Of a stretch of DNA of 31,335 bases, positions 5,555-16,703 are shown piece after piece (the stretch's first letter is position 1; the number at the start of each line of letters is the position of its first letter). The stretch is taken from positions 1-31,335 of IMG/VR virus record IMGVR_UViG_3300035487_000467. One strand, given 5' to 3'. This DNA comes from a virus. Below the pieces are notes generated by a model. It saw only the letters and a program-made list of their open reading frames with translations, had not been told where the DNA came from and searched no databases. The position numbers and the translations under genes were made by a program.

Positions 5555-5577
5555 AGTATAACATTATCGGATAATGT
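5555..5577 (-). promoter_or_regulatory. Possible extended -10 element with palindromic spacer
   Basis: On the minus strand TATACT (5560-5555) is preceded by TGT, as in the other extended -10 promoters here, and the 17 bp upstream (5577-5561) form a perfect inverted repeat, ACATTATC-G-GATAATGT. The -35 position reads ACCACG, which does not match the TGTACA seen elsewhere. It lies at the stop codon of the upstream gene and just before the 59-residue gene. It could be a weak promoter with an operator, or chance in AT-rich DNA. Confidence 0.3.
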
Positions 5578-6184
5578 CGTGGTTGGTGATAAATAGTTGT
5601 TGTTGTGTTAAAGCGTGTTTTACCTTATAGACATTACAACCTAGAAAATTATCATAGGGATCAGTTACGTCTTCTACCACGACTTTTGATTTGGTGAGTC
5701 CTATTGTCTCGCCAGTAATAGGAGATGCAATGTCTCTTACCAACATATAGGTACCAGGATTTAACTGGCCCTTGTCATTTTGGAACCATTTGGATTCCTC
5801 TAACTGTAACTGGTCCCAATCTTCTCCTTCCATTTTAGCCATAATCTTTTTGATTTGGCTTTCACTCATGCCTGTATTTTCTTTAATAAGAAATAAAGCA
5901 GTAGCGTACGAAGCTAGCTTGTTTGCAACTCCGCCAGGAACTAGGTTGATTAATCTTTTAACATTAAATACTAGTCTATGAAATATAGTATACGCTGATT
6001 TTTCTGCAGGAAGTTCAGGCTTACGAACCTTTTTACCTTTTTTATCTATGATACCATAGTCAAAAGCTTTCATCTTCTCCCATGGAGTAACTAATAACTT
6101 TAAGAAACGAAACGCATAGAACATATCACCGGCTCTCGACAGCAATCCTTCATTGATTTGTTTCTTGCTAGGAATCTTTATCAT
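5564..6184 (-). CDS. Conserved phage protein, probable virion component
   Basis: A 206-residue protein starting MIKIPSKKQINEGLLSRAGD. INE-G at residues 10-13 fits the [I/L]xE-G/A site cut by T4-type prohead protease. The middle has a helical, partly hydrophobic region (FHRLVFNVKRLINLVPGG, then LASYATALFLIKE) and the end looks like an SH3- or beta-rich segment (NPGTYMLVRDIASP and YDNFLGCNVYKVKH). I do not recognise a named family, although this pattern seems familiar from other marine T4-like phages. The ATG overlaps the preceding stop as ATGA. Its late-unit location between internal-head-type genes and lysis genes suggests a structural or packaged role. Confidence 0.82.
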   Translation of the reverse strand: MIKIPSKKQINEGLLSRAGDMFYAFRFLKLLVTPWEKMKAFDYGIIDKKGKKVRKPELPAEKSAYTIFHRLVFNVKRLINLVPGGVANKLASYATALFLIKENTGMSESQIKKIMAKMEGEDWDQLQLEESKWFQNDKGQLNPGTYMLVRDIASPITGETIGLTKSKVVVEDVTDPYDNFLGCNVYKVKHALTQQQLFITNHDIIR

Positions 6185-6552
6185 AGCTTTCTCAGTACCT
6201 CTACTATTCTTTCGTCCATTCCGATCTCAACCTTATCACTCAATGGTAAAAAGTGCAAGAATACTAAGAATGGTTTAATGAAATGATAGTGTTCAGGTTC
6301 AACCTTAAACCATATCATCTTATTTGCTGCTTTTATACCAAAGACATTATAGATAACTATTAAGTGATTTAATATTAAGCGCTCTTGGAGATCTTCATGA
6401 TCTGCATATCTCCTTAACAAGCGCTTTATATATTTAAATCTACTTAGATCATCTTTAAATTCTTCGATGTCCATGCATTCCGGGTTATTATAAGCTTGAG
6501 CCGCGAACAGCTCAAAGTTCTTATTTGTCAGTGTGTCAAATTTATTATCCAT
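6181..6552 (-). CDS. Conserved phage hypothetical protein
   Basis: A 123-residue, Phe/Tyr/Leu-rich helical protein starting MDNKFDTLTNKNFELFAAQ, with a central block (RFKYIKRLLRRYADHEDLQERLILNHLIVIYNVFG split over ~45-85) and KPFLVFLHFLPL near the end. An upstream TTG at 6573 would add seven residues but has no support; the ATG at 6552 gives the natural N-terminus. There is no clear ribosome site, only an AT-rich TATATATAATATT leader. No catalytic motif or membrane segment stands out. Such small helical proteins are common in late regions of marine T4-like phages; function unknown. Confidence 0.8.
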   Translation of the reverse strand: MDNKFDTLTNKNFELFAAQAYNNPECMDIEEFKDDLSRFKYIKRLLRRYADHEDLQERLILNHLIVIYNVFGIKAANKMIWFKVEPEHYHFIKPFLVFLHFLPLSDKVEIGMDERIVEVLRKL

Positions 6553-6583
6553 AATATTATATATAACCCGCAAAGGCTAATGC

Positions 6584-6946
6584 TTATTTGTTTAAATAAG
6601 GACCATTAACTTTAGCTTTGTACTTCTTAAGAATTTTTTGTACACCTGAATCTTTTGCAAATTTATCAAGTGAAGATTTATCACCATAAAATTCTAAAGA
6701 AGCTGGAGCACTATCACCACCATCAAAGCTAGATATATGCATACCCTTAATTTTGCTAATGGTTTTATCCATAGCACTCATTTCGCCCTGATTAAATCCA
6801 AAGTCATCATCGAATTTATTAGATGTATTGCCCTTAACAACTTCAATATTCATTGAAGCTTCAGCTTTACGGTTTCTATCTTTATAGTTCTTAAGGTCTT
6901 TAACACCTTCAGCTAGTTTTGATCTTAATTGTTTAAATGTATTCAT
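6584..6946 (-). CDS. Predicted internal head protein with cleavable leader
   Basis: A 120-residue basic protein beginning MNTFKQLRSKLAEG. The leader matches the T4 capsid-targeting pattern (aromatic-Lys start, amphipathic helix, then LAE-G), predicting a prohead-protease cut after Glu14. The mature part has an Asp/Ser-rich linker and a compact C-terminal domain (residues ~60-118, from MDKTISKIKGMHI to YKAKVNGPYLNK) that I do not recognise. A strong GGAGG site precedes the ATG, suggesting high expression. It follows the 394-residue gene with almost no gap. Likely packaged in the capsid; what it does after that is unknown. Confidence 0.8.
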   Translation of the reverse strand: MNTFKQLRSKLAEGVKDLKNYKDRNRKAEASMNIEVVKGNTSNKFDDDFGFNQGEMSAMDKTISKIKGMHISSFDGGDSAPASLEFYGDKSSLDKFAKDSGVQKILKKYKAKVNGPYLNK

Positions 6947-6947
6947 C

Positions 6948-8132
6948 TTACGCTCCTCCTGAAAAGCCGAAGGTATCGGATTTAGTTACACCGCTACCCC
7001 ATTTATCTTTTAATTTTTGCATGTATTTTTTTTCGCTTTCAATATTCTTTTTCCAGCCATCAATTCGGTCTTGGCCACCAGATTTCATTTTAAATTTACT
7101 ACTTTGAGTATCAGAGATGTTTTTTCGTAAAGTTTCGAGTTTAGCTACTGAATTTGCATATTCTTTTGCCGCTCTCTTAACATCTTCATTTACATCTTCT
7201 TTAACACCATCTTTCCCAGGTTCTTCTTCTGAGTTATAATTAGCATCTACGTAATCAAAGAATTCCTTCTTTCTATCACCTAGTTCTGATGGGTCTTTAA
7301 CCTTAAACTTTTTCAAAGCTTTTTGGAAGAATGCTTTATAAGCAGCTTGCTTATCATTCATTTCATCTACAGTACCTTCGTATAACTCAGGGAATAGATC
7401 TTCCATATCGTCTGAATCCATACCATACATGTCTCCACTTAGGAATGCAGCAATATCTTTCTTTTCACCACTAACATCAGCAGTGCCTCTGCCAGTAAAT
7501 TTGATTTTAAGCTTATGCTTTTTCTCAGCATTCTTAGCATCAGTCTTATCGCCAATGTAATCTATATCGATTGTAACTTTACCTTTACCTGTTTTCTTAA
7601 CAGCTTCGTTAACGTCATCATCTTCTTCGTCATCTTCCTTTTGGTCCTTAACGAGATATTTCTTACCAGCTACAACAAAGTCTTTATCGCCATTCTTACG
7701 AGCAGCATTAAGTTTACCTAGGAATAGGTTACCCTTTTCATCGACTTCTTCTTCATCATTTTTTTTACCATTCTTTTTATCGATGGCTTTTTGAAGAGCG
7801 GGTGGTAAAGTACCTTCAGCACTAACTTCACCTTTGTCGTTAGCTCCAGTTTTCTTAACAGCATGTTTAGCTTTGAATTCCTTTTCGCCTTTGGCTTCAG
7901 GTTCTCCAGCTTCTTTCATTAGATCAGTATGATTCTTTTCAGCATAAGCTTCAGCTTCATCTTTTGAATCAAATGACTTTACTACTGTGCCGTCCATTTT
8001 TTTGACTACGTATGAGTCTCCGTCTTTAGAAACGTGGTCTGTCGACTTCATCTCCGCAACCGGCTTTTTTCCCTCTAATACATCTTTGACAGCGTCAGCA
8101 ATATTTAGAGTTTCTTTATCATGCAATTTCAT
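6948..8132 (-). CDS. Large charged internal/core head protein, multi-domain
   Basis: A 394-residue, very Lys/Glu/Asp-rich protein of the type found in phage prohead cores or inside capsids. The start MKLHDKETLNIADAVKDVLEG holds VLE-G (Glu20); further prohead-protease-like sites occur at VNE-A (Glu176), LYE-G (Glu252) and VNE-D (Glu316), which would divide it into pieces. Between them lie a small domain with DGTVVKSFDSKDEAEAYAEKN-like sequence (about 32-75), acidic linkers, a LNAARKNGDKDFVVAGKKY segment (141-159) and a helical C-terminus. A near-perfect AAGGAGG precedes the start. A scaffold or core protein, or a polyprotein of injected peptides, both fit; no enzyme motif is seen. Confidence 0.78.
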   Translation of the reverse strand: MKLHDKETLNIADAVKDVLEGKKPVAEMKSTDHVSKDGDSYVVKKMDGTVVKSFDSKDEAEAYAEKNHTDLMKEAGEPEAKGEKEFKAKHAVKKTGANDKGEVSAEGTLPPALQKAIDKKNGKKNDEEEVDEKGNLFLGKLNAARKNGDKDFVVAGKKYLVKDQKEDDEEDDDVNEAVKKTGKGKVTIDIDYIGDKTDAKNAEKKHKLKIKFTGRGTADVSGEKKDIAAFLSGDMYGMDSDDMEDLFPELYEGTVDEMNDKQAAYKAFFQKALKKFKVKDPSELGDRKKEFFDYVDANYNSEEEPGKDGVKEDVNEDVKRAAKEYANSVAKLETLRKNISDTQSSKFKMKSGGQDRIDGWKKNIESEKKYMQKLKDKWGSGVTKSDTFGFSGGA

Positions 8133-8143
8133 AGGTTCCTCCT

Positions 8144-8428
8144 TTATTGCAGTATTAGCATTCCAGTAACGGTGGTTGCGGCTGCAGCCATTACGATCCA
8201 GAATATTTTGTTAATTATATTTATAGTAGTAGCATTACCTTGTACTTGCTTTTCTACCAGTTCTAATCTTCGTTGTCCATCAACTAACATGTCCATTTGT
8301 TGATGCATAAATTTTTCAAGGCCCATAAGCTTTTCTTCGGCCCTTGCTAGTGATATAATAGCATCAGATAATTTATCTAGTTTATCTTCTATTCTATTTA
8401 ATCTAGTCGCTTGAGTATCATTTACCAT
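8144..8428 (-). CDS. XhlA-like coiled-coil membrane protein, candidate holin component
   Basis: A 94-residue protein: residues 1-65 form heptad-like coiled coil (RLNRIEDKLDKLSDAI and later RRLELVEKQV), followed by a single C-terminal hydrophobic helix (IFWIVMAAAATTVTGMLIL, 74-92). This arrangement is like the haemolysin XhlA/holin-associated family (PF10779), where the membrane helix follows the coiled coil. The ATG overlaps the stop upstream as TAATG. The late-unit position, with spanins and a lipase downstream, makes a holin or anti-holin role reasonable, but the same fold could anchor a virion or host-membrane protein. Confidence 0.72.
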   Translation of the reverse strand: MVNDTQATRLNRIEDKLDKLSDAIISLARAEEKLMGLEKFMHQQMDMLVDGQRRLELVEKQVQGNATTINIINKIFWIVMAAAATTVTGMLILQ

Positions 8429-9192
8429 TATTTAACCAACCTTTGGGCTTCTTTCTTATCTAATCCATATACATCTACCAACCACTTCTGAAGGCCAGTT
8501 TTATCTTTGCTTTGGACTACTAGTTCGTTTTCTCTCTTATCCCAGGAATCAATATAAACTCCATCATCTTCCCAATCTACTTCGTGGTCTCTTGGATCGC
8601 CCATATCAAAATCTAAGGTTGCTTTAAATAATCTTGCTTCTTTAATTTCAAAATGCTCTGCGAATTTTTTCATTCCAGCATATCTCTTTGTTTCTTTTGT
8701 TGAGCCAGCCATAGACCCAGTGTATTTACCCATGACTGTGCCAGATGAAATATACTTTTGTAAGATGGTTTTTTGTTTTGAATTAATCTTCATAGCATTG
8801 TACAAAGCTTCTTTCTTATCAGACAATTGACCTTTGTAAGGTTTCTTAGCTGCATAGATTCTGCTAGATTTAACATCCCCTGCTGCTCTTCCTACATATT
8901 GGGCATTTACTTGACCATGGTCCATATAGTCCTTTAGGATATCTTTCTGAATCTTATTCAGTTTCATTGATGCACATAGTTCATCAAGGTTTTTACCCCA
9001 AGCTTCTTTCACAATAGCTTGCATATATTTTACTGATTCATTGTTTACTTTGTATAAAACATCAGCTACTGTTTTTTCTTTTGAAAGACCTTTTTTCATT
9101 GACTCAATCTTTCTGACTGCGCCTGAATAGTTGCCTTCCATCTTCTTAGCAATTTTTACTGCCTGATCTATTTCTTTCTTTGAAAATGCCAT
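8428..9192 (-). CDS. Hypothetical late protein with an internal duplication
   Basis: A 254-residue protein with a helical N-terminus (GGN-like 'KKMEGNYSGAVRKIESMKKG') and two similar ~42-residue blocks at about 76-117 and 134-176: each has a QK..IL..Y....G.V...Y.G..AG..K....YA..KK pattern, so it arose by an internal duplication. After the second block, IKE-A (Glu185) is a possible prohead-protease site ahead of a distinct acidic C-terminal domain (FDMGDPRDHEVDWEDDG onward). It lacks the Phe-Lys leader of its neighbours. TAATG junctions link it to both adjacent genes. Likely a virion or assembly protein; no family named. Confidence 0.8.
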   Translation of the reverse strand: MAFSKKEIDQAVKIAKKMEGNYSGAVRKIESMKKGLSKEKTVADVLYKVNNESVKYMQAIVKEAWGKNLDELCASMKLNKIQKDILKDYMDHGQVNAQYVGRAAGDVKSSRIYAAKKPYKGQLSDKKEALYNAMKINSKQKTILQKYISSGTVMGKYTGSMAGSTKETKRYAGMKKFAEHFEIKEARLFKATLDFDMGDPRDHEVDWEDDGVYIDSWDKRENELVVQSKDKTGLQKWLVDVYGLDKKEAQRLVK

Positions 9193-10307
9193 TATCTTAT
9201 CCTTTTTAAATCGATGCCTGTCGCTTTCTTAAATGCTACTATCGCTTCGGGTTCTTTTAACTTATACGTACTAAATTCTAGTTTATCACCATTAATATCA
9301 AACCAGTTGTCATATGATTTCCAGTTCATTTTCTTTTCTAAGGCCGAAGCTGCATCATTGGCATACGAACTAGAATTGAATTTAATCTCAGGCCAGCGGT
9401 AATCATTAATGTCATACTTTGAAACTTCATTAATCTCCACAGACTCTTTAACACCTTTAATTGCGAAGTCTACTTGTTTGAGTAAGTCTTGAAGTTTAAC
9501 TACTTCTGGAGATTTGGTTGTCTTCTTCTTAAACTTAATAAGATCATCAATCTGAGTCAAGAAAGAGTTGCGAGTCTTCCGTAAAGATGCTTTGTCTTTA
9601 CCGATATACTTATTCTTGTACGATGGAGACAGTGCTTCGTCAACTGATTCACCAATTCCTAGTTTTTTCTTAACCATATCTCTAGCTTTATCATTCTTAT
9701 CAGGACCTTTACCGTGTTTTGTCTCTAAGTCTTTTTTAGCATCAGCATATTTTTTAGACCTTGCATCTTTAAGTTTTCTATTAGCAACTTTAATACGATC
9801 TTTGTCGTCGTCTTTCTTATTAACCTTTGCTAATTTAGCATCTGCTCTATCAGCTTTAGCCGCTGTCGTAAATGGATTTGTTGCTTCAAGAACATCTCTA
9901 TCCATCCAAGCTTCAAACTCATCAGTATCGTCAGTCTTAACCTCGCCGTTATCTAGTGCATAGTCCATAAAGGCTTGATTAGCTTTACTGTTCTTAAAGT
10001 AGCCATCATTCTCGTATTTCTTAAGGTCTGCTTTAAACTTTTTCTTTAAGTTATTAAGTTCACGGTTTTCATAAACTGTTTCTTCCTTAGTTATCTTAAA
10101 GGAATCTGCTGAAGCAGCTTTAAGAGCAGGATCTTTCCACAGCTTCATAGCTTTATTAATTGCTTCAAATCCAGACCGAGCTTTTACTGTTTGCTTATCA
10201 CCCTTCTTAAGCTTATTAACCGGCTTTTGAACTGTGACTGTCCAAGTATTCATTACTGCTTCTGCAATTGTGCTTACTTCTAATTTTAATTGGTGAAATG
10301 TTTTCAT
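9192..10307 (-). CDS. Predicted internal head protein with several protease-like sites
   Basis: A 371-residue Lys/Asp-rich protein. It begins MKTFHQLKLEVSTIAEAV, very close in style to the T4 internal-protein leader, with IAE-A at Glu16 as the predicted cut. Three further sites of the same kind are spaced through it: VLE-A (Glu141), VDE-A (Glu224) and INE-V (Glu294). Between them are a small domain with GFEAINKAMKLW (about 46-57), a highly basic linker, a helical LRKTRNSFLTQIDDLIKF segment (242-259) and a compact C-terminus (YRWPEIKFNSSSYAND to DLKRIR). This fits a capsid-packaged precursor processed into several products. No enzymatic motif seen. Confidence 0.78.
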   Translation of the reverse strand: MKTFHQLKLEVSTIAEAVMNTWTVTVQKPVNKLKKGDKQTVKARSGFEAINKAMKLWKDPALKAASADSFKITKEETVYENRELNNLKKKFKADLKKYENDGYFKNSKANQAFMDYALDNGEVKTDDTDEFEAWMDRDVLEATNPFTTAAKADRADAKLAKVNKKDDDKDRIKVANRKLKDARSKKYADAKKDLETKHGKGPDKNDKARDMVKKKLGIGESVDEALSPSYKNKYIGKDKASLRKTRNSFLTQIDDLIKFKKKTTKSPEVVKLQDLLKQVDFAIKGVKESVEINEVSKYDINDYRWPEIKFNSSSYANDAASALEKKMNWKSYDNWFDINGDKLEFSTYKLKEPEAIVAFKKATGIDLKRIR

Positions 10308-10317
10308 ATTTTTCTCT

Positions 10318-11529
10318 TTATACTTTAGCGGCTAGATCTTTATCAGCTCCGCCCCATGTTCCTTTGCTTTTAGTAGCAAAAGAATTGACTCTTGCTAACC
10401 CCCATTGTGTTGGATTAGTGCCTGGTCGATGGCTTGTTTTCCAAGCGGCATATCCTCTATCGAATACTTTCTTTAATATAGGATAAGGCATTCCAGTCTT
10501 ATCAGCCTTTTTTTGTAACGAAGCTTTAGCACCATCTTCTTCCAAAGAATCTCTAAAGCTTTTAAAACTATTTTCTCCAAACTTCTTCTTAAAGTTCTTT
10601 GTATGTTTACTTTCAGGTGCATTATCTCTTGGCTTGTCATGCTTCTTCTTTTCGCCAGGAGTCATTTCTTTATATGAAGAAGTAAGTTTGTCTGTACCAA
10701 TCTCTTGAACTGCTTCAATTAATTCAACACCTTCTAACCATACTCTTTTCTTTTCTTCACCTAATTGTACTATGACATAATTAGTTGCACATACTTTAAT
10801 AGTACCAACTTCATTAGTGGCTTTAATGATTACTTCATTGCCTTCTTTGAATAATGTACCATTAACATATTCTTCTCTGCGATCAGATACTTTTTCTAAT
10901 TGAACATGTTTTCTAAAATTCTTTGATTCAGATAAACCCATTCCAGCTCTTACTGCATTAAATAGATCTTCTATTTCCTTATAACCCTTAGGCATTCCTG
11001 TAGAAAACAATGCTAGATCATTTTCTGATGCTGCAGCTCTTAACTTAGAAGCTGACATACCTTCTGCACCTTCAGCATCTGGATCTCTTTCACCAGCACT
11101 CTTGACTGTAACACCACTTTCAAATTGATAGAAACCATGTCGGCCTTTAACACCATTATATTTATTAAGTAGCTTTTCAAATTCTATAACTCTATCGCTA
11201 CCAGCAACCATAGTTACTGATGTATAACCTTGATCATATAAAGCAACGACGATATCCATTGGTTGCTTAATTCCTTTATCTGCCATAATATTTCTAGCAT
11301 GCTTAGGAAACATCTTTCTTAAAAACTTAACTTTGTCTTTAAAATTAAGTGGATTCTTCTTAGCGTCTTGGCTTTGTGATGGATATATTCTATACGCTCC
11401 ACCTCTGGATACTTTCTTAATAGCATCCATTAATTTTTCATGGCCAATCGTAGGAGGATTAAACCTTCCAAATGCAACAGTGATATCACTTTTATCTTCT
11501 TTTAAATATGTTTTAAATGTACTAATCAT
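10318..11529 (-). CDS. HxGH nucleotidyltransferase fused to SH3-like and DUF5824-like domains, likely packaged
   Basis: A 403-residue multi-domain protein. MISTFKTYLKE-D is a capsid-targeting-type leader (cut after Glu11). Residues ~15-190 are a cytidylyl/adenylyltransferase-like Rossmann domain: GRFNPPTIGHEKL has the (T/H)xGH nucleotide motif (27-30), and MSASKLR (158-164) corresponds to the ISSTxxR-type motif. Residues ~221-271 form a KOW/SH3-like beta domain, and ~333-400 a DUF5824-like C-terminus (FDRGYAAWKTSHRPGT, QWGLARVNSF). LIE-A (Glu272) and LEE-D (Glu331) are possible internal cuts. Such enzymes transfer an NMP to a phosphorylated or carboxylated substrate; the substrate here is unknown. 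Confidence 0.82.
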   Translation of the reverse strand: MISTFKTYLKEDKSDITVAFGRFNPPTIGHEKLMDAIKKVSRGGAYRIYPSQSQDAKKNPLNFKDKVKFLRKMFPKHARNIMADKGIKQPMDIVVALYDQGYTSVTMVAGSDRVIEFEKLLNKYNGVKGRHGFYQFESGVTVKSAGERDPDAEGAEGMSASKLRAAASENDLALFSTGMPKGYKEIEDLFNAVRAGMGLSESKNFRKHVQLEKVSDRREEYVNGTLFKEGNEVIIKATNEVGTIKVCATNYVIVQLGEEKKRVWLEGVELIEAVQEIGTDKLTSSYKEMTPGEKKKHDKPRDNAPESKHTKNFKKKFGENSFKSFRDSLEEDGAKASLQKKADKTGMPYPILKKVFDRGYAAWKTSHRPGTNPTQWGLARVNSFATKSKGTWGGADKDLAAKV

Positions 11530-11535
11530 AATATA

Positions 11536-11898
11536 CTATGCATTCCCTTTAGGATCTTTGATTTTCTTCAATTTTAGTTTGTCTGCTTTCTTAACGGAAG
11601 GCAATAGCTTTTTGGCTATTCTTTTAATAGCTCCTTTCTTTTTGTCTAATTTTTTTTCTAGGTCAGCACGTGCCGAATAACCAAGGTCTGCTTTATTCTT
11701 ATCTTTAAGAATTTTCTTTATAAGAATATTGCGTGCTTGCTTTTCAGCTCTAGCTTTGAGTTTTTCTGGGGATGCTAATTTTTTTGCGGCTTTCTTTCTG
11801 CCTAGCATGATCTTGGCTTTATTTTTCTTGAACGCAGCTTTCATCTTCAACCTTTGAGAGGTTGTCATCGCTTCGTTAAATTCTTTAAATGAATCCAT
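11536..11898 (-). CDS. Very basic DNA-binding-like internal protein
   Basis: A 120-residue protein in which roughly a third of residues are Lys or Arg (for example FKKNKAKIMLGRKKAAKK and KKGAIKRIAKKLLP). It starts MDSFKEFNE-A, a short Phe-Lys leader with FNE-A at Glu9 as the likely protease site. After cleavage the product would be an almost purely basic helical protein, as expected of a histone-like factor condensed with DNA inside the capsid. An AGGA site precedes the ATG. I recall similar basic proteins in other marine T4-like phages but know of no functional study. Confidence 0.8.
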   Translation of the reverse strand: MDSFKEFNEAMTTSQRLKMKAAFKKNKAKIMLGRKKAAKKLASPEKLKARAEKQARNILIKKILKDKNKADLGYSARADLEKKLDKKKGAIKRIAKKLLPSVKKADKLKLKKIKDPKGNA

Positions 11899-11916
11899 TA
11901 TCCTGGCTTACCCATA

Positions 11917-13161
11917 TTAGTTAGGACTTTCCCAACCTTTTATTATATCCTTGCTAAAGTTGTTTGCAGAAAATTCTAATCTGTCAACAAGTTTAACCGC
12001 TCCACCTTCCATACGATCTATGGCAACAAAACCCTCTGGGTTGGTTACCTTAAATCCGGACTTAGTCTTAACAAACGTACCTATTTTGTTTAGACCATTA
12101 AGTTTATTTATAATAATTAATTTGCTATCTACCACAGAATTTTGCAAATCGAACACATTTATTAACTTTTTTTGATTAGATTTACTAAAAAAGGATAATA
12201 TGGCCTCTCTTTGCTTGTTTTTATTCGCTTTACCTTTTTCAGATGATAGCTTATCAATCTGTTTCATGTATCTATCGTTAACCCAATCGATCAATCCTTT
12301 CACATGAGCGGTTGTATTAGTGATTCTTTCACCTTTACGAACCTTGGTATTATTATATGTGTTAATCAATAAGTTTAATTCTTTATTAGATTCAATCTCT
12401 TTAAGCGTTGTGCCTGAGACTGTTTTAAATATTTTACCAGCATTTGATAAGTACTTAGTTACTTCTTCTGTTTCTTTTGCTGTCATAGTAGCGCTACCTG
12501 ATATATCTGGTAATGTTGCATCTACTTGCCAAACTTTAGAAGACTGTTTAATTCCTGGAGTAATTAATTTTCCAAACTCAGCTTTCATTGTTTCGAATGT
12601 TCCACCGCTGTATGTTGTATGCCACACAATACCAATCTCAGCTTTTAATATCTCCTTTGCTAGACTCGTACCGGTAGGAACAGCGTACACAATAGTATTA
12701 GGGTGAAAAGTGACATGACTAACGCCGTTTATGTTCTCTGATTTAACATCGGCTTTATCAAACATAAAATCACCTTGTATAACATTAGTTATACCTAAGT
12801 CTTTTAGATTATCAAACGCCATTTTTAATTTCTTAGATAGATCACCTGACGTATCAGCATCGATCTCTGCATGGTTCTTATACACCTTTGGATTGGCATT
12901 AAAGATACCTTTTTTCGCCACAAAGAATTGACCATCTCTTGGATCCATTCCTGCGAAAAGGGCGGGAGCACCGTCCCATTTAACCGTAACGTCGACTGGC
13001 GCCTTCGCGTTACCTGATAGCATATCTCTTAAAGCTCGTAATGCTAGGATTGCCTGGCGTGCTCCCTTAACTCCACCGTCTAGAACTAAATCCTCAATAT
13101 GTGTCATATGAGTATTTTTCTGAGCGGCCTCGCTAATAAGTTGTCGTTTAAAACTCAACAT
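11917..13161 (-). CDS. DUF6267-like protein with DNA/RNA ligase-type KxDG motif
   Basis: A 414-residue protein with a packaged-protein leader (MLSFKRQLISE-A, cut after Glu11). The body carries what look like motifs of the covalent nucleotidyltransferase (polynucleotide ligase/capping) superfamily: KWDG (61-64, motif I, Lys61 as the AMP/GMP-accepting residue), VIQGDFMF (128-134, in place of motif III), PEGFVAID (375-382, motif IV) and VKLVDR (389-394, motif V). I believe this corresponds to the phage family DUF6267. A role in joining or capping nucleic-acid ends is an inference; catalytic competence is unproven, and motif III has Asp where Glu is common. The leader suggests delivery with the phage DNA. 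Confidence 0.75.
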   Translation of the reverse strand: MLSFKRQLISEAAQKNTHMTHIEDLVLDGGVKGARQAILALRALRDMLSGNAKAPVDVTVKWDGAPALFAGMDPRDGQFFVAKKGIFNANPKVYKNHAEIDADTSGDLSKKLKMAFDNLKDLGITNVIQGDFMFDKADVKSENINGVSHVTFHPNTIVYAVPTGTSLAKEILKAEIGIVWHTTYSGGTFETMKAEFGKLITPGIKQSSKVWQVDATLPDISGSATMTAKETEEVTKYLSNAGKIFKTVSGTTLKEIESNKELNLLINTYNNTKVRKGERITNTTAHVKGLIDWVNDRYMKQIDKLSSEKGKANKNKQREAILSFFSKSNQKKLINVFDLQNSVVDSKLIIINKLNGLNKIGTFVKTKSGFKVTNPEGFVAIDRMEGGAVKLVDRLEFSANNFSKDIIKGWESPN

Positions 13162-13488
13162 TTAATTATCCACCGGAGCGTTTGCTCTCCATTGATAACA
13201 TGACCAATACTTCGCTTTCCATTTAGGTCCGGGAGTATCGCATCCATGTCTTGCTCTAAAACTCTTTCTTGCTTTCGGATCGTCGCGATTGATAGACATC
13301 TTAGGGTCACCAAATCTAACTACGACAACTTTACCCGATTCGTTCTTAACGTACACTTTAAATTTTTTGTTCTTATTTTCAGACGTACGAATAGGATCGT
13401 TAAGTTTAACCTTACGACCTTCATGCTCTGACTCTTCAATCACGACATCGTGACAGGATTCACAGCAATAATCCTTTAGTGTTTTCAT
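13162..13488 (-). CDS. Small conserved phage protein with FGDP/RARHGCD domain
   Basis: A 108-residue Cys- and Arg-rich protein. The core (about 28-102) reads as KLNDPIRTS, KKFKVYVKN, VRFGDPKM, RKSFRARHGCD and KAKYWSCYQW, a compact domain I have seen in marine phages, both alone and attached to capsid-related proteins. Four Cys in the N-terminal CCESC and the core Cys pair could bind metal. The start MKTLKDYCCE vaguely resembles the cleavable leaders of its neighbours but lacks a proper [I/L]xE site. It is adjacent (no gap) to the ligase-like gene downstream. Function unknown. Confidence 0.8.
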   Translation of the reverse strand: MKTLKDYCCESCHDVVIEESEHEGRKVKLNDPIRTSENKNKKFKVYVKNESGKVVVVRFGDPKMSINRDDPKARKSFRARHGCDTPGPKWKAKYWSCYQWRANAPVDN

Positions 13489-13931
13489 TAGGTTCCTTTA
13501 ATAGTTCTAACTACTTTACTAATGATCATTTTTAAAGCAGCTTGATAAGCCCAACCATAACCAAAGAATACGTGGAATGTGTGGTTCTTTTCGATTTCAG
13601 ATTTAGGACCAAATTTCTTAGTCCAGTTATCCACCCATTCACCTTTGTATCTTAACACTGCATGAGATACTTTCCACTTACTTGGTCCTACACTACAAAT
13701 TCCAGCTTGGTGAGTGATTAACATCCACCACATTTTTAAATGACTTTCGCCACATAATCTATAAAGGATTGTAAGACTATAGTCTTCGCAATCTCCTACA
13801 TATTTACCCTCAGCGTCTGGCGAGTAAATGATCTTCCAAGCATCAGCCATGCCATATTGGTCTTTATCTTTACGATATTTCCACTTACTATTAAATGATG
13901 ATACTATTTTATTACGTTCTTTAATTTCCAT
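13488..13931 (-). CDS. Transglutaminase-like cysteine protease (BTLCP-type)
   Basis: A 147-residue protein with the papain/transglutaminase triad in order: GDCEDYSL (Cys48), SHAVLRY (His90) and WVDNW (Asp101). GDCEDY followed by SHAVL and WVDN is the signature of bacterial transglutaminase-like cysteine proteinases (PF06035). The expected activity is hydrolysis or transfer at a Gln/amide bond, possibly on a cell-envelope or capsid substrate. It has no signal peptide and, unlike neighbours, no packaging leader. TAATG links it to the next gene. It could process a virion protein or act on the host envelope; the sequence does not decide. Confidence 0.8.
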   Translation of the reverse strand: MEIKERNKIVSSFNSKWKYRKDKDQYGMADAWKIIYSPDAEGKYVGDCEDYSLTILYRLCGESHLKMWWMLITHQAGICSVGPSKWKVSHAVLRYKGEWVDNWTKKFGPKSEIEKNHTFHVFFGYGWAYQAALKMIISKVVRTIKGT

Positions 13932-13932
13932 T

Positions 13933-14259
13933 CTATCCTCCGAATTCGTGGCCAGCCACTCTTTTCATTTGCTTTTTGAATTCAGCAAAGTCTGGTTTAG
14001 TTTTATACAATTTGATAGTAACTTCTGCTCTATCCTTTCCTTTAATTCTATACTTATATCCATTATTTATGTGATCTGTATCAGTGGTCTTTACGACTCT
14101 ACGTTTAAACCCATCTTCCCACGGTTCACTCTTATCAGTGCCTTCATCAACAGGAACACAATTAGGAACGTTTTTACCGTTCTTCTTTTTCATTCCTACC
14201 TGCTTATATCCAGGCCAACATGGTCCTTTAGCTTCAAAAAAATCTTTAAACGGCTTCAT
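13933..14259 (-). CDS. Predicted packaged protein with CWPGYKQVGMKKKNGK motif
   Basis: A 108-residue basic protein. It starts MKPFKDFFE-A, a short Phe-Lys leader with FFE-A at Glu9. Directly after it comes GPCWPGYKQVGMKKKNGK and VPNCVP (residues 12-36), a two-Cys element found at the ends of several phage head proteins in my recollection. The remainder (about 48-108) is a basic beta-rich domain (GYKYRIKGKDRAEVTIKLYK). It overlaps the upstream gene by four bases (ATGA). The function of the motif is not known; the leader suggests it sits inside the capsid. Confidence 0.78.
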   Translation of the reverse strand: MKPFKDFFEAKGPCWPGYKQVGMKKKNGKNVPNCVPVDEGTDKSEPWEDGFKRRVVKTTDTDHINNGYKYRIKGKDRAEVTIKLYKTKPDFAEFKKQMKRVAGHEFGG

Positions 14260-14522
14260 TTCTTTTTAAGCTCGTATCTAAATGTTTTGCCTTTAGCTTG
14301 GTTTGTTTTAGTAACACCCCAACCAACTATTGTACCCAGTTGTTTCATTAACACTAAAGCTTTTTCTGGATTTTTGTCTGCCATCTTAGAGAATACTTTT
14401 TCTAACTCAGTGGTAATAGTTTTAAAGATCTCTCTATCTCCCATTACTAACGGAGCTTCATCTAAGGGTATATTAGTAGCTGTCTCTATGATTTTTGTTT
14501 CTAGTGTTGTATAGTCTTTCAT
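14256..14522 (-). CDS. Small hypothetical late protein
   Basis: An 88-residue helical protein. The first 22 residues (MKDYTTLETKIIETATNIPL then DE-A) contain two possible prohead-protease sites, IIE-T (Glu13) and LDE-A (Glu22). The remaining 66 residues form an amphipathic helical segment (FKTITTELEKVFSKMADKN) and a basic end (TKTNQAKGKTFRYELKKK). It sits between two genes with capsid-targeting-type leaders and overlaps both by one to four bases, so it is translated with them. No family is recognised; a packaged or head-assembly role is inferred from position and the leader. Confidence 0.75.
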   Translation of the reverse strand: MKDYTTLETKIIETATNIPLDEAPLVMGDREIFKTITTELEKVFSKMADKNPEKALVLMKQLGTIVGWGVTKTNQAKGKTFRYELKKK

Positions 14523-15895
14523 TATTGATATACCTTTACGTATGCGCTAGAGTCTTCTGATTTTGATCCAGCATAATTAACAATTTTTGTAATCCATCTA
14601 TTTGCTTTAGGTCCTGTATTTTTATCTACATTATATAATACAAACAAACATGCTAATTTAGATCCAATCCAATAAACATCCTTTGCTGCAATCTCTTTTT
14701 CAAACGATTCATATGATTCATTCTTATAGAAATGATTATACATACCATAGAAGTCTTTAAGAGCTTTCTTATTCTTCTGTGTAATCGCCTTAGCTATCTT
14801 ATTTATAGCTTTATTATCAGGTATTTTTTTCCTAAAAACTTGTTGTGCTGCATCAACCATGATACCAAAACCAGCTCCACCGCCTCTGGCTGTCTTAAGT
14901 CTGATCTCTGCTTTAATAGCACCACCGGCAGAACCTGCTCTTAGATCTAATTTACCTTCATCAAAAATAACAGTAGCACTCTTATTAGTCCAAAAGGTTC
15001 CTCTCTTTTCGCCTTGAAAGAGAATAGATTTTATTTTATGATCGTCAGTATCTGGTGGTAGTTTAATATTATATTCTTTAGCTTTGGCTGTCTTCTTAAC
15101 AAGTTTAAGAGATATAGCAACTAGCTTTCTATCAACAAAGTTTTGTAATAGTCCTTTATTATAACTTGTAATACTTTCAACATTAAGTTCTTTGCTAATA
15201 TTAAGATTTTTATCGATAGCCCAGATATCTCCAGGATTCCACTTATCATCTTTGACTGGACTTTGATCTGAATTTTTGTATGCTACGTTTTTAAGAGCGT
15301 ATATAGCATTCATCTCTGTACTGTTTCTGTGCAATTTATGAGACTTATTAATATATCCCTGCTTAATTAGAAGTACTGCTGACTCGTATGAAGAATGAAA
15401 CCATCCATCTTCTACCGATAATACTTCATCAAATGTAGCATCAACAGAGACAGATTTAAATGCAGCTTTAAGAATAACGGGGTCTGTAAAGAATTCTTCT
15501 GATTGTATTCCATGATCTAACATGGCTTGGCATAAAACGCATTGGTGTGATTCTGTTACTTTAGTATTGAGTGTGCCACCTCCGGCTCCACCTCCACCAC
15601 CAAATACTGCACTCTTACCAAGATCTGAAGAACTAATAGTCTTACCATCGCCGTGCAAGTTGAATGGCTTTCCTAGCTTTTTAAATATTTCTATTTGAGA
15701 TAAAGCATCATCAATTTCAGTAACAGTAAACGTACCGCCCTTAGCTAATTCTAAAGCTTTATTATCTTGTATAAGTCTTTTTAAAGTGTCTAAGCGATCT
15801 TCACCCGTAACTGAGTTAGGTTTTTTTAATTCCGAAGGAATTAGTTTTACTGCTTCTAATACTGAACCCAGTTTATATTTTTTAAACGATAACAT
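14522..15895 (-). CDS. Large predicted packaged protein, possible PD-(D/E)XK-like core
   Basis: A 457-residue protein, first gene of the late unit, with late promoter TATAAATA 23 nt upstream and a TTAGG ribosome site. MLSFKKYKLGSVLE-A is a packaging-type leader (cut after Glu14). A Gly-rich hinge (98-107) separates an N-terminal helical region from the main domain, which has HQCVLCQAM (possible metal site, 117-125). WNPGDIWAID (219-228, Asp223), an ELNVESI stretch (Glu236) and LVAISLKLVKK (258-268, Lys264) together look like the Asp...[E/S]xK core of restriction-endonuclease-like folds, though the second acid is replaced by Ser. A nuclease is therefore a tentative reading; otherwise it is an uncharacterised virion protein. 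Confidence 0.8.
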   Translation of the reverse strand: MLSFKKYKLGSVLEAVKLIPSELKKPNSVTGEDRLDTLKRLIQDNKALELAKGGTFTVTEIDDALSQIEIFKKLGKPFNLHGDGKTISSSDLGKSAVFGGGGGAGGGTLNTKVTESHQCVLCQAMLDHGIQSEEFFTDPVILKAAFKSVSVDATFDEVLSVEDGWFHSSYESAVLLIKQGYINKSHKLHRNSTEMNAIYALKNVAYKNSDQSPVKDDKWNPGDIWAIDKNLNISKELNVESITSYNKGLLQNFVDRKLVAISLKLVKKTAKAKEYNIKLPPDTDDHKIKSILFQGEKRGTFWTNKSATVIFDEGKLDLRAGSAGGAIKAEIRLKTARGGGAGFGIMVDAAQQVFRKKIPDNKAINKIAKAITQKNKKALKDFYGMYNHFYKNESYESFEKEIAAKDVYWIGSKLACLFVLYNVDKNTGPKANRWITKIVNYAGSKSEDSSAYVKVYQ

Positions 15896-15917: not shown

Positions 15918-15925
15918 TATTTATA
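15918..15925 (-). promoter_or_regulatory. T4-type late promoter TATAAATA
   Basis: On the minus strand the sequence TATAAATA (15925-15918) exactly matches the T4 late-promoter -10 element recognised by gp55-type sigma with gp33/gp45. It lies in the short space between a 59-residue gene and the 457-residue late gene, 23 nt before its ATG, and precedes the long run of virion-type genes. A TATAAT also follows at 15916-15911 but has no matching -35. The same octamer occurs by chance inside several coding regions, so location is the main support. Confidence 0.65.
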
Positions 15926-16110: not shown

Positions 16111-16252
16111 GGCTTAAGCCTAGCTTTTCTACTATAACTTGGTAACCCTTTTCTTTCATTCGATGCGCAAATACCGCAGCAGTTTCTTCTAGTTCATAGA
16201 CATATTCTGCTACGGTAAATCCGTTCTTTTTTGCTGTGACTTTAAAAATCAC
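16103..16252 (-). CDS. Very small protein, GTG start (49 aa)
   Basis: A 49-residue protein read from a GTG at 16252: it begins (M)IFKVTAKKNGFTVAEYVYEL and ends EKGYQVIVEKLGLSHD. It forms a plausible beta-beta-alpha-beta mini-domain and closely fills the gap, overlapping the HAD gene by 11 nt and the downstream 59-residue gene by 8 nt. There is no ATG and no strong ribosome site, so translation would depend on coupling to the HAD gene. The protein-like composition and exact packing argue that it is real. Confidence 0.55.
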   Translation of the reverse strand: MIFKVTAKKNGFTVAEYVYELEETAAVFAHRMKEKGYQVIVEKLGLSHD

Positions 16253-16703
16253 CAGAAGCAACCTGCAAACATTTCAATCCTTTAGCTCTCCACATGTCGA
16301 CGACTCTTTGTCTGTCATCTAAGACAAACTTAGTAGACCAAAATGGCTGAACATTTTCTTGAAACATTTCCCATTTAACAATCGAGTCTTCTCTTAAGTC
16401 ATCATCTTTACGAGTAAAGATATGATCGAAATCTACTTTATGATCTTTCAACCATTGTTTACAAATAGATGTAGAAGAGGCAGGCCTTGCAGTAAAGATA
16501 ATAATAGTATGATCTGCAGAAAATCTTCGAACGATATCTGCAACAACAAGGTCTAATCCATCTTCACCAGCACGCTTCCAATCGTAAGGATCTCTATCAG
16601 TGAAACCCTCTCTATGGCATAAAGTACCATCCATATCAACTAAGATAGCTGATTGAGATGGCATGCTATGTGCTTCTGCTTTAAATAATTCTGCTTGTGT
16701 CAT
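16242..16703 (-). CDS. HAD-superfamily phosphatase, PNKP 3'-phosphatase-like
   Basis: A 153-residue HAD hydrolase. VDMDGTLCH (22-30) gives nucleophile Asp23 and acid Asp25; IIIFTARP (68-75) supplies the motif-II Thr; the conserved lysine and FVLDDRQRVVDMW (near 127-139) supply motifs III/IV. The arrangement, with DRDPYDW after motif I, resembles the phosphatase domain of T4 polynucleotide kinase/phosphatase, so removal of 3'-phosphates from nucleic-acid ends or from nucleotides is the best guess. No kinase domain is attached. The ATG overlaps the upstream stop as TAATG, in the P2 unit. Confidence 0.85.
   Translation of the reverse strand: MTQAELFKAEAHSMPSQSAILVDMDGTLCHREGFTDRDPYDWKRAGEDGLDLVVADIVRRFSADHTIIIFTARPASSTSICKQWLKDHKVDFDHIFTRKDDDLREDSIVKWEMFQENVQPFWSTKFVLDDRQRVVDMWRAKGLKCLQVASGDF

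Follow-up and report, generated by a model that had tools for sequence, protein, structure and literature searches.

DUF6267 proteins of T4-like phages as predicted ligase-fold nucleotidyltransferases, some with a capsid-targeting-like leader

Results

A DUF6267 gene within a block of genes for basic proteins

The window, i.e. the whole 31,335-nucleotide stretch of viral DNA that was analysed (IMG/VR record IMGVR_UViG_3300035487_000467), carries at 11917..13161 a gene on the minus strand, which runs from 13161 down to 11917 and encodes 414 amino acids plus a stop codon; on the plus strand the same interval has stops throughout. The basic product (pI 9.5) is a full-length member of the Pfam family DUF6267 (PF19782; residues 16-403, 337 bits at a Pfam cut-off of 27 bits, E=2e-100) and matches phrog_455. 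DUF6267, PF19782, phrog_455 and T4-GC 71 are synonyms for one family, to which neither Pfam nor PHROGs gives a function. On the basis of an AlphaFold2 (AF2) model and structural matches, we describe the protein as a predicted covalent nucleotidyltransferase of ligase-like type.

According to tblastn searches, DUF6267 occurs in 458 sequenced T4-like phage records, the majority from marine cyanophages, and is annotated as hypothetical in nearly every case. Carriers other than cyanophages include pelagiphage HTVC008M, Methylophilales phage Melnitz and Stenotrophomonas phage DLP6. IMG/VR holds further hundreds of relatives, and none of 14 control genomes has the gene. Natural short forms of about 300 amino acids lack much of a helical insert. 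Matches in the GTDB collection lie nearly all on contigs of marine MAGs, which is consistent with viral contigs binned into these genomes. The gene is also found in the 188 kb contig NZ_RMVE01000006.1 of the isolate genome of Nonlabens xiamenensis, possibly a T4-like phage or a carrier-state phage of a flavobacterium. A search of the literature for the text "DUF6267" returned nothing, NCBIfam and PADLOC scans of the window protein gave no useful match, and PDB sequence searches with the single protein and with a 21-member profile produced chance-level matches alone.

The downstream gene (10318..11529, minus strand) encodes an HxGH-family nucleotidyltransferase (phrog_3041/395), annotated as a cytidyltransferase, with NMNAT-like motifs and the leader MISTFKTYLKE. 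A first interpretation made from the DNA alone, hereafter the sequence-only reading, had noted this enzyme and a polynucleotide-phosphatase-like HAD protein in the neighbourhood. The HxGH enzyme turned out to be the true conserved partner, as its gene lies downstream of DUF6267 in 23 of 23 window-like, 13 of 13 HTVC008M-like and 25 of 33 DLP6-like loci. In S-PM2d both proteins are fused (591 aa), and such fusions probably also exist in some uncultured phages. An older S-PM2 record shows the DUF6267-cytidyltransferase gene in two frames; since the later S-PM2d record has a single unsplit fusion, the two frames result from a frameshift, which is either a genuine mutation or an error of sequencing. 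Conserved residues of the HxGH partner are G21, R22, N24, P25, T27, G29 and H30 as well as S159, K162 and R164; they resemble those of NMNAT-type enzymes, for which the scores stay sub-threshold. The HAD protein (16242-16703) is real and nearby, with a PNKP-type match to PF25109 (E=1e-39), but it is not a conserved neighbour: it stands beside DUF6267 in 4 of the 23 eligible window-like loci and in no HTVC008M- or DLP6-like locus, and as a functional partner it was set aside for want of a conserved association.

Between the two genes, at 11536..11898 (minus strand), lies a gene for a small, very basic protein (pI 10.5) with the leader-like start MDSFKEFNEA, which follows DUF6267 in 15 of 23 window-like and 17 of 33 DLP6-like loci. 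All three belong to a block of consecutive minus-strand genes (5564-15895) for mostly basic proteins, most with a pI above 9; the genes outside encode mostly acidic proteins. Leader-like starts in this block comprise MNTFKQL, MKTFHQL, MISTFK, MDSFKEF, MLSFK, MKTLKDY, MKPFKDF and MLSFKKY, and many proteins of the block start with M-x-x-F/L-K/H; its products are candidates for packaging into the head. The octamer TATAAATA (15918..15925, minus strand), which precedes the first ATG of the block by about 20 bases, resembles a T4 late promoter, although the count of this octamer over the whole window is at or below chance. The gene at 14522-15895 encodes a 457-aa phrog_1462 protein (function unassigned in PHROGs) with the leader-like start MLSFKKYKLGSVLEA and no Pfam match above cut-off. 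The product of 13488-13931 weakly matches a BTLCP/LapG-type transglutaminase-like cysteine protease (PF06035, E=8e-5, below cut-off).

Nucleotidyltransferase motifs and their conservation

The sequence-only reading had recognised motifs I, III, IV and V of covalent nucleotidyltransferases, and all four are found exactly at the residues it gave. On the minus strand, motif I is KWDG (residues 61-64, 12970..12981), which is invariant in the alignments and contains the predicted nucleotidyl-acceptor Lys61. Motif III is QGDF (129-132, 12766..12777) with Q129 and D131 invariant in alignment A1, and motif IV is PEGFVAID (375-382, 12016..12039) with E376, G377 and V379 invariant in the same alignment. 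Motif V is VKLVDR (389-394, 11980..11997), in which K390 and R394 are invariant and Val392 takes the place of a second lysine (alignments A1 and A4). The protein thus has the Lys, Asp and Gly of motif I, an acidic motif III and the Glu of motif IV. Taken alone, this order of motifs is only weakly improbable, since a loose regular expression also fits 0.29% of composition-preserving shuffles and, among 1005 further phage ORFs of at least 250 amino acids, one; it stands above chance because of its conservation in relatives.

When 21 diverse relatives with identities down to about 25% were aligned (A1), K61, D63, G64, D131, E376, G377, V379 and K390 all fell within the 35 invariant columns. KxDG is present in all 323 DUF6267 members that are complete at that point, and the three exceptions among the 326 relatives fetched are fragments without that region; it is likewise invariant in a second alignment, A2. 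The acidic residue of motif III is Asp131, where T4 Rnl2 has Glu. As regards motif V, the earlier identification of VKLVDR stands, but the motif has one lysine rather than the K-x-K of T4 Rnl2 (K225-x-K227 in A4): the second basic residue of K-x-K/R is absent at position 392, and the invariant R394 follows two residues on. Near the N-terminus, an H-M-T-H-I-E-D element (residues 18-24, 13090..13110, minus strand) is nearly or fully invariant as H-x-x-H-x-E-D, with H18, H21, E23 and D24 invariant in A1. We know of no counterpart in ATP ligases. Between motifs III and IV, the AF2 secondary structure and A1 delimit a helical insert (residues 228-355, 12097..12480, minus strand), part of which is missing from the short forms.

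Predicted fold

AF2 modelling yielded confident models for both the window protein (pLDDT 91.1, pTM 0.87) and a natural 299-aa short form (pLDDT 89.5). Structures were compared by VIA-align re-ranking. For the window model, set against 1000 PDB chains, rows 1-43 are covalent nucleotidyltransferases throughout, and the first unrelated row has a Z of 6.1. The Naegleria RNA ligase leads with Z 8.6 (184 residues, 3.7 A), and further rows include T. brucei REL1 (Z 8.3), T4 Rnl2 (7.9), an archaeal RNA ligase (7.3) and DNA ligases (6-7). With the short form, ligases fill 50 of 50 rows and RNA ligases take ranks 1-29; the Naegleria ligase scores Z 8.9, T4 Rnl1 7.8, Rnl2 7.1, and DNA ligases 6.0 and lower. 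Hence the structure prediction that the sequence-only reading had suggested as a check, run here on two proteins, places members of the nucleotidyltransferase superfamily at the head of both lists. It is important to note that top Z scores of 8.6-8.9 barely exceed the stated background of VIA-align, and that the structural link to ligases depends on this re-ranking and not on Foldseek, which found no significant match in the PDB for either model.

Methods based on sequence gave no such link. The RNA_ligase HMM (PF09414) had no match above cut-off in the window protein, the ATP-dependent DNA ligase HMM (PF01068) did not match it, a profile-profile comparison with 14 T4 Rnl2 orthologues was negative, and no ligase family was among those listed in a Pfam scan of 78 DUF6267 members. 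The window protein ends 20 residues past VKLVDR, so that there is no OB-fold domain after motif V, and it lacks an Rnl-type C-terminal domain. By the definitions of the two HMMs it belongs neither to Rnl2 (PF09414) nor to DNA ligase (PF01068). DUF6267 is predicted to have the nucleotidyltransferase fold that forms the core of RNA and DNA ligases, and from the uniform structural lists together with the invariant residues at catalytic positions, the window protein probably belongs to the covalent nucleotidyltransferase superfamily, with the second motif-V lysine as the one usual feature that it does not show.

A capsid-targeting-like leader

The window protein starts with MLSFKRQLISE (residues 1-11, 13129..13161, minus strand) followed by AA, and residues 1-14 are disordered in the AF2 model (pLDDT<50). 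The T4 internal proteins ipII and ipIII start with MKTYQEFIAEA. In T4, ten N-terminal residues are enough for a protein to be loaded, positions 4 and 7 are important for targeting and positions 8 and 10 for cleavage, and the prohead protease gp21 cuts after L/I-x-E (PMC9026906). Judged by the definition given there, an N-terminal leader of 10-19 amino acids with an L/I-x-E site, the window protein has such a leader, with a predicted cut after Glu11 according to the family comparison, the ipII/ipIII start and the gp21 rule. The T4 spacing, which has hydrophobic residues at 4, 7 and 8 and Glu10, is shifted by one in the window protein (F4, L8, I9 and E11, with Gln at 7).

The packaging-type leader proposed in the sequence-only reading holds as a sequence pattern across the family. 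A hydrophobic-x-E site is found in the N-terminal extension of all 229 members from window-like, HTVC008M-like (pelagiphage-like) and DLP6-like loci, and it is L/I-x-E in 227 of them. The 78 short cyanophage forms have no leader and no L/I-x-E at that place. The pattern is kept over 69 distinct decapeptides, and two changes suffice to explain its distribution on the family tree. The exact T4 spacing is shared by 67 of 75 DLP6-like, 20 of 76 window-like and 5 of 78 HTVC008M-like members, the last of which have a short extension of mostly 7-12 amino acids.

Published virion proteomes allowed a comparison of leaders with virion presence. In S-SZBM1, the HxGH enzyme neighbouring DUF6267, which starts with MRFRQFIIEA, was detected, and the list of detected virion proteins does not include the leaderless DUF6267 protein (397 aa, inferred locus S-SZBM1_141; PMC9146016). 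In S-SM1 virions, too, the orthologous HxGH enzyme, which starts with MKKFSAFLNEA, was detected (PMC3037559). The S-CREM2 virion proteome includes gp6, gp13, gp14, gp136 and gp154, which all start like MKxFxxFLxE, and does not list the leaderless DUF6267 protein gp87 (PMC10665884). These five S-CREM2 proteins are a SAM hydrolase, an APH-like kinase, a cytidyltransferase and two hypothetical proteins. Of the six S-CREM2 proteins with exact T4 spacing, five are in the virion proteome (Fisher p=0.003), a value that counts as supporting evidence only, because the exact spacing was tightened after the first result had been seen; other leader expressions gave p=0.06 (loose spacing) and p=0.25 (relaxed). 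In the Cas9-like gp12 of S-CREM2, residues 17-26 (LRFASFMAEA) look similar; a misplaced start codon could be the reason. The leader thus agrees with virion presence for the proteins compared in the three phages, with the caution of the proteome authors that abundant proteins may co-purify. In the literature we found no virion mass spectrometry for DUF6267 proteins with a leader; from the leader we infer that these forms are probably packaged into the head.

Ligases in phages with DUF6267

A recognisable ATP ligase (PF01068) is encoded in 5 of 28 DUF6267-carrying records, in each case elsewhere in the genome than DUF6267, and an NAD ligase in none of 24 DUF6267-bearing records tested. T4 and 10 relatives show the reverse, with PF01068 (gp30-type) in 11/11 and DUF6267 in 0/11. 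This inverse distribution (Fisher p=2.6e-6) is not independent evidence, because it follows two clades. T4-type RNA ligases were not found in most of the DUF6267 phages tested. In several genomes the DUF6267 gene comes after the gp41 helicase gene in the replication cluster, and the replication group to which gp30 belongs has many quasi-core genes that are missing from one or more cyanophages (PMC2993671). S-CREM2 gp190 (44929-45432) is labelled as a DNA ligase, probably a mis-annotation, as its match is to DUF6433 (E=1e-30) and to none of the ligase families.

Discussion

Like the RNA ligases of Naegleria gruberi, T4 (Rnl1 and Rnl2), T. brucei (REL1), archaea and fungi (Trl1), DUF6267 has a predicted nucleotidyltransferase fold with KxDG, an acidic motif III, an EGxV motif IV and a motif-V lysine in the same order, and like Rnl1 and Rnl2 it is compact, without an OB-fold past motif V. 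Unlike these enzymes, it shares 9-15% identity with them over aligned residues and no HMM or profile link, it has K-x-V instead of K-x-K in motif V and a helical insert between motifs III and IV, and it combines the lack of a known accessory domain with a capsid-targeting-like leader. T4 gp30 and other ATP-dependent DNA ligases have the same superfamily fold, at a lower Z of about 5-7, but DUF6267 lacks their OB-fold domain and motif VI, is not matched by PF01068 and is distributed inversely to gp30 in the phages tested. With T4 IPI-IPIII and Alt it has in common an N-terminal hydrophobic leader of 10-15 residues ending in a gp21-type L/I-x-E site; its putative passenger is a predicted ligase-fold enzyme and not a restriction inhibitor or an ADP-ribosyltransferase. 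Superfamily, leader and mechanism are proposed here for a family to which Pfam and PHROGs assign no function.

In enzymes of this superfamily, a lysine attacks the alpha phosphate of ATP or another donor, AMP is transferred to a 5'-phosphate end, and the 3'-OH of the second end closes the bond. We consider it fairly probable, if far from assured, that DUF6267 proteins are divergent covalent lysine nucleotidyltransferases of RNA/DNA-ligase fold, and that the window form is packaged into the head, injected, seals ends and is paired with the HxGH enzyme. The T4-type leader would tag the protein for prohead loading, the prohead protease would clip it after Glu11, and the enzyme would enter the cell with the phage DNA. 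For the steps that follow, we infer adenylylation, sealing and a choice of substrate: Lys61, surrounded by Asp131, Glu376 and Lys390, would take up an NMP (most likely AMP), which would be transferred to a 5'-phosphate end before the break is sealed. As the substrate we slightly prefer RNA, such as a tRNA cleaved in host defence, to DNA, since RNA ligases are the nearest structures and the OB domain is missing. The protein may act together with the adjacent HxGH nucleotidyltransferase. Leaderless cyanophage forms would act as newly made enzymes, and leader-bearing forms on entry.

Several other explanations have to be weighed. DUF6267 might be the phage's own DNA ligase in place of gp30, which is missing from many marine T4-like phages, so that unpackaged cyanophage forms seal replication nicks and packaged forms also nicks in incoming DNA. 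The inverse distribution with PF01068 and the absence of NAD ligases in the records tested, the position after the gp41 helicase gene and the cyanophage losses from the replication group speak for this; yet the contrast is confounded by clade, five records carry both genes, a host ligase could do the job, and RNA ligases outrank DNA ligases among the structural neighbours of a protein that has no OB-fold domain. We regard this explanation as possible but on balance unlikely. Alternatively, the protein could be a covalent nucleotidyltransferase other than an ordinary ATP ligase, which transfers an NMP to another acceptor (an RNA 5' end, a protein or a small molecule), perhaps with a nucleotide cofactor made by the fused or adjacent HxGH enzyme, or it could be an NAD+-dependent ligase whose NMN is recycled by that enzyme. 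The natural fusions in S-PM2d and other fused entries, the near-universal adjacency, the NMNAT-like signature of the partner, the unusual motif V and the invariant H-x-x-H-x-E-D element fit such a role. We nevertheless find it unlikely, as end-joining ligases overwhelmingly dominate the structural neighbours and the NMNAT scores of the partner are no more than sub-threshold.

A further question is whether the leader is a packaging signal at all. The enzyme might instead work solely after fresh synthesis in the host cell; the literature search found direct virion mass spectrometry for no leader-bearing DUF6267, and the short HTVC008M-like extension rarely has the exact spacing. This explanation is quite improbable in the face of a pattern that is kept over 69 decapeptides and missing in cyanophage forms, and of leader-bearing HxGH neighbours in the virions of S-SM1, S-SZBM1 and S-CREM2. 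A packaged but catalytically inactive internal protein, in which the fold is recycled for a nucleic-acid-binding or structural core role, would match a basic, leader-bearing product from a block of basic proteins, one motif-V lysine of which is lost; but residues at catalytic positions are among the most conserved of the family, the unpackaged cyanophage forms included, which makes such a protein very improbable.

A more far-reaching version of the preferred explanation, a packaged and injected end-sealing nucleotidyltransferase, is that DUF6267 forms a new polynucleotide ligase branch of its own, which is present across an entire half of the T4-like phages and there takes the place of both gp30 and the RNA ligases of T4, and that in phages of heterotrophic bacteria it is a packaged, injected repair enzyme paired with an NMNAT-like HxGH enzyme that supplies or recycles the nucleotide cofactor. 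As a whole, we consider this version doubtful.

With a predicted superfamily, catalytic lysine and cleavage site, a hypothetical protein family becomes directly assayable. Since phages with DUF6267 so rarely have a recognisable DNA ligase, one may ask how their DNA is sealed. For several proteins the leader rule M-x-x-F-x-x-F/Y-L/I-x-E is in agreement with virion proteomes from the literature, and it can serve to predict injected proteins of T4-like marine phages. If leader-bearing DUF6267 forms are packaged, ligase-type enzymes would be delivered alongside the genome, and the phage could mend RNA cuts made by host defence, or DNA nicks, ahead of any phage gene expression.
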